NCBI GenBank assembly: GCA_937139465.1
Contig: CAKZQE010000285.1
Location: forward strand, 1 to 32,709
DNA from: an uncultured Gammaproteobacteria bacterium
Lineage (GTDB): Bacteria > Pseudomonadota > Gammaproteobacteria > Pseudomonadales > Litorivicinaceae
Direction of reading: 5' to 3'
DNA: 32,709 nt
Positions 28,876 through 32,709 of this stretch are shown here, piece by piece. The position numbers were made by a program, and so were the translations under genes. A model generated the notes under the pieces. It was not told where the DNA came from. It saw nothing but the letters and a program-made list of their open reading frames with translations, and did not search any database. How positions within the stretch are numbered: the stretch's first letter is position 1; every line of letters begins with the position of its first letter.

Positions 28876-28927
28876 ACGCCTAAACTGTTGGCCTTTTGCG
28901 CTTATGCTCAGTAAGCCAAGGACAGAT

Positions 28928-30064
28928 ATGACCAAGCGAATCGGCGTGGTTGGCGGTGGCCAACTTGCTCGCATGCTCCAGCCGGAAGTAACCGCGCTGG
29001 GCGCAACCCTCACCGTGCTTGACCCCGATGCCCACGCACCGGCCTGCGCTAACGCCGATGCGAATGTGCTTGGGGGTTACCACGACGAAAAAGCTATTTT
29101 TGAACTCGCCTCACGGGTCGATGTGATCACGGTCGAACTGGAGGACGTGGGTGTCGAGGCCTTGGCCCGGGTCCGCGATGCCGGCACGCCGGTCTATCCT
29201 GCTCCCGAACTGATTGCCCTGATCCGTGACAAGCTGACCCAGAAGCAAGCTTATGAGCGCCTTGGGATTCCGACGGCACCCTTCGTGGAGGTCGCGCCGG
29301 ATGATCCGCAAGCCTTCGATAATTTCGGCTACCCCTTGGTTCAGAAAACCCGCACGGGCGGCTATGACGGCCGCGGTGTGGTGGTGATGGACTCCTCTGC
29401 AGACTACGCCAACCGTTTGGATGCTCCATCTTTTGTGGAAGCGAAAGTCGATGCCCGGATGGAGCTGGCGGTCATGGTTGCCCGCGGCCCAAACGGTGAA
29501 TGTGCCGTCTTTGAGCCGGTAGAAATGGTGGTGGACCCCGACCTGAACTTGCTTGATCTGCTGCTGACGCCTGCGCGGATTAGCGATGAGCTGCGTGACA
29601 GCGCCAAGGCGTTGGCCGAGCGAGTCATCACTGAACTTGAGGGCGTGGGCTTATTCGGGGTGGAGCTATTTGTCACCCACAAGGATGCGCTACTGGTTAA
29701 CGAAATTGCCCCGCGCGCCCACAACTCGGGTCATCACAGCATCGAGGCCTGCCAGACCAGCCAGTTCGGCCAACAGGCGCGATTACTGCTTGGGCTGCCC
29801 CTGGGCACCACCGACCAGCCCAAGCCGGCGGCGCTGGTTAACCTAATTGGCGCACCCGGCTTCCAGGGCGAGACCGTCGCCGAAGGGTTGGCCGACGCCC
29901 TCGCGATTCCCGGCGTGACGGTGCATCTTTACGGCAAAACTGAATGCCGTCCGGGTCGAAAAATGGGCCATTTCAGCGTCGTCGCTGAGACCGTAACTGA
30001 GGTCCTTGCGAATGCCCGAGCGGCCAAGCGAGCCCTGAGCATCAAAGGAAAACAGGCACTATGA
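28928..30064 (+). CDS. purK: 5-(carboxyamino)imidazole ribonucleotide synthase
   Basis: A 378-residue ATP-grasp enzyme that makes N5-CAIR from AIR, bicarbonate and ATP in purine synthesis. The N-terminus [17 protein letters not shown] is diagnostic. The ATP-grasp region includes [11 protein letters not shown] and, near residue 255-270, [18 protein letters not shown], containing metal and substrate contacts. I chose ATG at 28928, with AAGGA five bases upstream; an ATG eight codons earlier (28904) lacks support. It overlaps purE by four bases. A 52-base gap separates it from aroE, with no promoter I can identify confidently. Confidence 0.97.
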
Positions 30065-30564
30065 AGCAAGTAGGAATCATCATGGGCAGCGACAGTGACC
30101 TGCCGGTCATGCGAGCTGCCGCTGAAGTGTTGACGGATTTTGGCGTCGAGTTTGAGCTGACGATCGTCTCGGCCCACCGCACGCCGGACCGTATGGTCAA
30201 TTACGCGCGTTCGGCTGCCGAGCGCGGCCTAAAGGCAATCATCGCCGGTGCTGGTGGCGCGGCGCATTTGCCGGGCATGGTCGCGGCGATGACCACGGTG
30301 CCAGTGATTGGTGTGCCGGTGAATATCACCGCCATGCAGGGCCAGGACAGCCTGATGAGCATCGTTCAGATGCCCAAGGGCATTCCGGTGGCGACGGTGG
30401 CCATTGATAACTCCGCCAATGCGGCATTGCTGGCCTTGCGTATCATCGGCGCGTTCGATTCGGTCGTGCAAACGAAGCTGGCGCATCACTTGGCTGACAT
30501 GGAAGCGCAGGTAATTCAAAAAGCAGCCCGGGTGGCTGAGGAATTTGGCGCCGTCTCCCTGTGA
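30061..30564 (+). CDS. purE: N5-carboxyaminoimidazole ribonucleotide mutase
   Basis: A 167-residue class I PurE, which rearranges N5-CAIR to CAIR, the step after PurK. The active-site signature GSDSD is at 9-13, followed by SAHRTPDRM (37-45) with the conserved His, and [12 protein letters not shown]. The length is usual. The ATG overlaps the purK stop (ATGA), so the consecutive enzymes are translated together. In many genomes the order is purE-purK; here purK comes first. Confidence 0.97.
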
Positions 30565-30596: not shown

Positions 30597-31439
30597 ATGC
30601 TGTCCCCCGAACTGAACGAGCGCTTGCTGGCGCTGCTGGATCGAATCGAACCCATCCTGCCGCCGCGTTTTGACCCCATCGATTTTGATCAGATCAAGGC
30701 TGTCCGCTATCAGGCCGCGGGGGCCGGCGGCGGTCTGGTTCCGATCGATGCGGCGCTGGATCAACGATTCAGCGATTTGCTAGCGATGGAGCGGCAGCAA
30801 CAGCACTTCCGAGCCAATGCTGAACTGTTTCTGAAGGGCTGGCCAAGCAACCATGTGCTGCTTTGGGGCGCCCGGGGCACCGGTAAAAGCTCACTGGTGC
30901 GGGCGATGCTGACGGACTACCACGGCCGCGGCCTGCGGCTGATCGAGTTTGCTAAGGCCGACCTGAACCGTTTGCCGCAGGTGCTCTCCACCTTGGCGGA
31001 TTTGCCCTATCACTTTGTGGTGTTCTGCGATGACCTCTCGTTTGAATCCGGCGACACCGGGTATCAAGCTCTGAAAACGGTGCTTGAGGGGTCCATGGCG
31101 GGTGTCCCACAGAATTTGATGGTGGTGGCCACGTCAAACCGTAAGCACCTGGTGCCGGAGCCTGCCGCGGACAACTTGGCGTCCGCTGGAAACGTGGTGG
31201 ACGGCGGCGAAGTGCATTTGGCCGACAGCATCAACGAGCGCATTGCGCTGGCGGACCGGTTTGGCCTCAGCCTGAGCTTCTATCAGTATTCGCAGCCGGA
31301 CTACCTAGCGATTTGCCGCCACGCCTATGCGACGCTTGCTCAGCAGGTGAACGAAGCCTTGCCGGAGTTTGACGAGCAAATGGCCATCGAAGCCAGCCGT
31401 TTTGCGATTGACCGAGGCGGCCGCGGTGGTCGCGTCGCC
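30597..31439 (+). CDS. DUF815 family AAA-type ATPase, C-terminus lost at the junction
   Basis: 281 credible residues of an uncharacterised P-loop ATPase of the DUF815 family. Walker A is GARGTGKSS at 91-99 and Walker B VVFCDDLSFE at 141-150; the sensor-like segment VVATSNRKHLVPE (176-188) and the LSFYQYSQPDYL region match the family. Native proteins continue a few residues past the GR-x-GRVA segment, typically with a Trp-Gln-Phe stretch. Here the frame instead runs into low-complexity sequence ending at a chance stop (31616). The gene is therefore truncated at its very end where bacterial sequence stops (between about 31416 and 31439). It is 32 bases after purE and may be co-transcribed. Function is unknown; it has been called an ATPase on motif grounds only. 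Confidence 0.85.
31416..31439. other. Probable chimeric junction, bacterial to algal DNA
   Basis: About 24 bases here encode expected residues of both neighbours. Read plus, they end the DUF815 protein as RGGRGGRVA; read minus, they continue the TauE/SafE-like protein as GDATTAAA. Each protein family fit stops on the far side of this stretch. That pattern suits an assembly overlap of short shared GC-rich sequence. Confidence 0.75.
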
Positions 31440-32207
31440 CTCGCCGCCGTAGAGCGCGAAAGCTTGCGCGGCGGCGGCGGCGAGCGCGACGGCGATCACC
31501 ACCGAGACGCTCGTCCCCGCGGCGACCGGCAGAGGCATACTTCGTTTCCGTCGCCGCCGCGTGAGCTGGGGCACGACGCTCTCTCCGATCCCCACGGAGA
31601 GCAAACCGGTGAGTAAACCGCCGAGAGCGGTGGCGACGACGGCGACGGGGTCAAAGAGCGGCGCGTCGTATTCGTACCGAGTCCCGTCAAAGGCGGTCAA
31701 AGTCATCGTGTACGTGCTCGACGAATGAGCGTCTTCGTCTGAGGTACTGTCATCCGCGGCGTCGTTTCCGGTCTCGACGCCCATCAAAACGTAAACGCCC
31801 AGAAAAAACGTGAGCGCGCCGTACGCGGCTCGTAACGCGTCGGGGTCCGCCGACGCGACGGCGAGTCCTCCGGCGCATCCGAAGGGCAAACCCACGGCGA
31901 TGAACTGTTTGGAGACCCGCCAGTCCACTAAACCGCGTTTGGTGTACCCCAGGAGCCCGGACGAGAACCCGAAGCACTCGGTGATGAGCGCGACGTTGAA
32001 CGCCTCCGCCGGCGTCGCGAGCGGGAACTCGGGGCCGAGCGCTTGGAAGCCGATGAGGAAGATGGGGGAGAAGAGCGCGGCGCCTCCTATGCCGGTGAGC
32101 ATCGCGGTCGTCGCGACGCACACGGACACGGGGAACATGAACGCGTACTTGGTCCAGTACTCGGTGTGCAAAGCGGCGGTCTGCGCGAGCTCGACGGCGG
32201 ACGAGAG
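31416..32207 (-). CDS. TauE/SafE-like membrane transporter fragment, green-algal type
   Basis: An open frame on the minus strand encodes an integral membrane protein of the sulfite exporter TauE/SafE family. Conserved-looking parts are MLTGIGGAALFSPIFLIGF, AFNVALITECFGFSSGLLGY, a segment GGLLTGLLSVGIGESVVPQL and a following hydrophobic helix. The proteins most like it, from memory, are in prasinophyte picoalgae (Micromonas, Ostreococcus, Bathycoccus). The C-terminal half-repeat is cut off at about 31416. The N-terminal boundary is unclear: upstream of about 32207 the frame stays open to 32525 but is Arg/Ala/Gly low complexity and unlikely to be this protein. High CpG and GC and the opposite orientation set it apart from the bacterial genes. 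Confidence 0.7.
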
Positions 32208-32450
32208 GCACCGCGCGCGGGACGTCCCGAAAGAACGCCCGAGAAGAGGTCCACGCCGGAGACGGCACCCGCCAACGAGATTTCCTACTCCGGGACGGGC
32301 GGTCGAGGCTGACGGGCGCGCGCGGGCGCCCGCCGTCGCTGCACCTCTGCCCCGCCTGATCTCCCCGCGCCTCTGGGCGGGCCTGCGCCGCCCCCGCCTC
32401 GCCACCTGCCAGGCCTCCGCGCGCCGCCCTCCTCGCGGCACCGCCGGGGC
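32208..32450. other. GC-rich low-complexity spacer in the algal segment
   Basis: A run of very GC-rich, CpG-dense sequence (most extreme about 32290-32450). Several frames stay open through it but give only Arg/Ala/Pro/Gly-rich translations. I see no domain, RNA or repeat. It may be intergenic or intronic algal DNA, or hold a further assembly join. Confidence 0.4.
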
Positions 32451-32709
32451 GGCTCGGTCAGCTCGACGCCGTACAGGCAGAACATGCACTGCGAAAGCGC
32501 CTTGTCGAAGCGCTCGAGAAGACACTCCACAGCCTCCAGGCGCGTCGGCGGCGGAACCGGTTCGGACGCGATCGTCGCTTCAAAGGGACCGCGCTCCTCG
32601 GCGTTTTCGTTTTCGTCGGGAAAAGAATTCTTTTCCCGCTCCGCCCACGCCTCGCACATCGCCACTTGCGCGCGCTTGTTCTTGGCGTACTGCCTCGTGC
32701 CGTCGAACG
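32451..32709 (-). CDS. Eukaryote-like protein fragment at the right edge, unidentified
   Basis: A minus-strand frame is open from the window edge to about 32451. It encodes an acidic, charged segment (REKNSFPDENENAEERG) and a helical, cysteine-containing stretch (LEAVECLLERFDKALSQC, then MFCLYGVEL). It does not look bacterial in composition. The LYG-containing stretch faintly recalls plant Hir3/CABIN1 histone-chaperone subunits, but that resemblance is weak and from memory. Downstream the frame decays into low-complexity sequence, so an intron boundary or gene end is probably near 32450. Function is not assigned. Confidence 0.35.

Follow-up and report, generated by a model that had tools for sequence, protein, structure and literature searches.

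The window analysed here is the entire contig C285 (32,709 bases) of a Litoricola-like draft genome, which comprises 318 contigs with a total of 2.26 Mb and is 97.85% complete. It is almost certainly an assembly (or library) chimera, bacterial up to about position 31441 and followed by unrelated CpG-rich DNA that is most likely picoalgal. A DUF815 gene is broken at the junction, contig C36 begins with its tail and the conserved neighbouring genes, and the composition of the DNA beyond the break is foreign. As the lost tail of DUF815 opens a different contig of the assembly, the final 1.3 kb of the window can be regarded as foreign DNA that was joined by mistake. The join is an ordinary assembly artefact and not a biological feature, in keeping with the preliminary description, which had advised against crediting anything to the right of about 31440 to the bacterium.

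Metagenome-assembled genomes are known to suffer, though relatively rarely, from the misassembly of fragments that derive from several sources (PMC8201837). As in the chimeric contigs described by GUNC (PMC8201837), fragments of mixed source share one contig here, two genes are cut at one point and the composition shifts; what sets the present case apart is the probably eukaryotic origin of the foreign part and the fact that the sequence that truly follows, C36, can be named. Genes broken on both sides of the junction, a continuation elsewhere in the assembly and a compositional discontinuity at the junction, all of which characterize a chimeric contig, were found together. The value of the observation is for curation only: positions 31442-32709 should be trimmed and C285 set beside C36. 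Trimming keeps TauE and the open frames of this segment from being credited to the bacterium or taken for gene transfer between alga and bacterium. The features discussed below are collected in Table 1.

Table 1. Coordinates of genes and segments on contig C285
Feature	Position	Strand	Basis and remarks
purK	28904..30064	+	Pfam ATP-grasp and PurK_C; bacterial; gene order as in two congeners
purE	30061..30564	+	Pfam AIRC; bacterial
DUF815 AAA+ ATPase gene	30597..31441	+	Pfam DUF815 and orthologue alignment; cut by the join, about 15 last residues missing
Junction zone	31425..31442		Reads as DUF815 on the plus strand, plausibly as TauE on the minus strand
TauE/SafE-type membrane protein gene	31443..32135	-	Pfam TauE; foreign composition and codon use; C-terminal fifth to quarter missing
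Foreign segment	31442..32709		Tetranucleotide distance, CpG observed/expected, C36 as real neighbour; for trimming
Open frame off contig end	32285..32707	-	No family match

The bacterial part and the broken DUF815 gene

The left part of the window (1-31441) carries a gammaproteobacterial gene set of the oriC type (mnmG, yidC, dnaA and gyrB), then glyS, trkH and rsmB, and later purK-purE. Along this part the GC content climbs from about 0.55 to 0.62, with no sharp step. The last bacterial gene encodes a DUF815 protein whose Pfam match (PF05673) is well above the curated cut-off (258 bits compared with 23.8). The match covers protein residues 32-282 and reaches position 239 of the 249 positions of the profile, which places its end at window position 31442. 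In the Litoricola-like congeners DUF815 also lies beside purE and purK; the gene order is identical up to the join, and the proteins are 59-62% identical. Judged by DUF815, the genome of a metagenome-assembled ‘uncultured Litoricola sp.’ (61% identical) is the nearest named one found.

The preliminary description had proposed a comparison with related DUF815 genes, and the alignment reveals a tail that the window lacks. All 11 family orthologues continue from the motif RGGRGGR[IV]A into [REH]QF[VA]xD, usually with W as the next residue, and stop 16-25 residues past the motif. In the window, RGGRGGRVA extends to about 31441 and is followed by LAAVERESLRGGGG, the conserved xQFVxDW tail being absent. 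The genome contains the motif and the protein only once each, and there is thus no second intact copy.

The missing tail on contig C36

In two congeners (G001 and G002), the genes that come after purK-purE-DUF815 are a convergent gamma-carbonic anhydrase gene and an oligopeptidase gene, in this order, and in both genomes the DUF815 and anhydrase genes overlap at their ends. In the draft genome itself, the anhydrase gene is located on the minus strand of C36 (38-562; 82% identical to that of a congener, E 1e-101) with the oligopeptidase gene next to it. Immediately ahead, bases 3-29 of C36 read in frame on the plus strand as WLMARHAR-stop, which matches the DUF815 tail ([D]W..R), and this stop overlaps the anhydrase stop as the gene ends do in the congeners. 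The last 15 or so residues by which the window protein falls short of its congeners lie on C36. From the number of contigs, the chance of an anhydrase 3' terminus being located no more than 40 bases from a contig edge is about 1%, a figure that takes account of neither the orientation nor the in-frame tail.

With the DUF815 tail and the conserved neighbour genes at the start of C36, the chromosome continues from C285:~31441 to C36:1, not into 31442-32709. The sequence strongly supports C36 as the true right neighbour of position ~31441, with about 16 bases missing between the two and 31442-32709 mis-joined. The contigs have no overlap, the join is not closed base by base, and the dinucleotide GC ahead of the W codon in C36 disagrees with the Asp codon that the family has at that site. 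Nevertheless, since C36 begins inside DUF815, the two contigs can be placed side by side in the draft genome.

A right-hand DUF815 remainder on C36 would also be expected if foreign DNA had really been inserted, for example by horizontal transfer, into the DUF815 gene of the strain, C36 then being the far flank of the insertion. Against such an event, which we consider very improbable, C36 starts within DUF815 with no trace of an insert ahead of the tail, the ends of the two contigs lie no more than about 20 bases from a common point, and the segment consists of two partial, unrelated open frames with no mobility gene. Equally improbable is the integration of algal DNA into the DUF815 gene of a subpopulation of the marine bacterium, with the assembly having caught the integrated form.

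The opposite-strand TauE/SafE gene and the junction zone

On the other side of the junction, a TauE/SafE-type gene is read from the opposite strand. It shares with the TauE/SafE family (PF01925) a match of 82.2 bits, above the curated cut-off of 32.6, but the domain is incomplete: only profile positions 2-189 of 237 are covered and the match ends at 31443. In a cyanobacterial relative the protein continues further (FFQAGGDSLSTVFSLVIFTVPGVLIGAQLG...); at this place the window presents the reverse complement of DUF815. Since the DUF815 and TauE matches end at adjacent positions and the relative continues, both genes are interrupted at a single position, as the preliminary description had noticed. 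It was also right that DUF815 has lost its last residues; for TauE, the loss of a whole C-terminal half was an overestimate, as the missing part amounts to roughly the last fifth to quarter. Compared with the location given for the join (31416-31439), the bacterial reading reaches slightly further to the right, to about 31441.

The GC-rich stretch at about 31425-31441 had been proposed to code plausibly for both proteins in opposite directions. This view stands, since the TauE reading of the zone gives GEGDATT where the cyanobacterial relative has GGDSLST. As the stretch fits both readings, a short microhomology, not exceeding about 17 bases, is possible from the sequence. An Rfam search around the junction gave no match.

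The course of events would then be as follows. Bases 1 to ~31441 represent the chromosome of a Litoricola-like gammaproteobacterium. Where the RGGRGGRVA codons of DUF815 form a GC-rich stretch, the assembly would have left the bacterial path and taken in 1.27 kb of unrelated CpG-rich DNA, most likely that of a picoeukaryotic green alga from the same water sample. The real bacterial continuation is C36 of the same assembly, past the gap of about 16 bases. We infer both the short GC-rich microhomology as the cause of the join and the alga as the source of the added DNA.

Composition and source of the right-hand segment

The rise in GC content and CpG density to the right of the junction, reported earlier, is borne out by GC contents of 0.679 on the right and 0.583 on the left and by CpG observed/expected ratios of 1.45 and 1.13, respectively, background windows reaching at most 1.27. 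A comparison of tetranucleotide profiles on the two sides, which had been suggested as a check, separates them clearly. The right segment lies at a distance of 0.62 from the left part, a value attained by none of 302 left windows of equal size (maximum 0.39); for pieces of C36 the mean distance is 0.30. In the TauE frame, CTC accounts for 16 of 27 leucine codons, as compared with 11% of those in host genes (p ~2e-9). CpG that spans two adjacent codons occurs 0.31 times per codon, host genes having no more than 0.21. With a mean codon log-odds of 0.115, however, TauE is inside the host range, so that overall codon use alone is not sufficient to reveal the foreign nature of the gene.

The host possesses seven other TauE-family genes, and a rearrangement that brought the host's own DNA from elsewhere to this position might be imagined. 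However, none of the seven resembles the TauE gene of the segment, and the segment departs from the host range in composition as well as in its use of leucine codons, which reduces this explanation to a negligible one. With the segment TauE as query, the own genome yielded only the query itself, 398 genomes of the phylum gave no match at E 1e-10, and no relatives were found in viral contigs, genome contigs or phages. Compared with the prokaryotic TauE/SafE proteins that were found, the window protein is distant and truncated, the best relatives being encoded by a cyanobacterial plasmid (41% identity over 98 aa) and by haloarchaea.

Nuclear DNA of Micromonas-like prasinophytes has a GC content of about 64% with an excess of CpG. 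Given that the contig is chimeric, our analysis suggests that the foreign DNA probably comes from a Micromonas-like green picoalga, which its GC content, CpG excess and plastid-type relative would suit. A picoalgal origin is likewise consistent with the composition, the codon use and the finding of no close prokaryotic relatives. The 1.27 kb could also stem from some other organism of high GC content (another alga or protist, or an unsampled prokaryote), a less likely but serious alternative to which the cyanobacterial and haloarchaeal relatives of TauE lend some weight, as does a stretch of 80% GC with a lower CpG bias that differs from its flanks. On the other hand, a green picoalga would fit the GC content of 0.63-0.66 and the CpG observed/expected ratios of 1.54 and 1.59 in the two coding parts, the codons ending in C, the acidic loop of TauE and the cyanobacterial affinity of its nearest prokaryotic relative. 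A chlorophyll a/b-binding protein gene, which would have pointed to further algal contamination, was looked for in the genome but not found, and a literature search on prasinophyte TauE returned nothing usable.

The stretch of 80% GC occupies 210 bases (32251-32460), and its CpG observed/expected ratio of 1.10 is unlike the values on either side. An exact 21-base probe from it found no match. It may be intronic or spacer sequence or mark a further join within the foreign segment; a Micromonas introner element would be one candidate. Relatives of the open frame that runs off the contig end were searched for and none was found. Between 32460 and 32707 this frame reads, on the minus strand, FDGTRQYAKNKRAQ...QCMFCLYGVELTEPP. 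It is perhaps part of an algal exon, and may resemble part of a CABIN1/Hir3-like protein.
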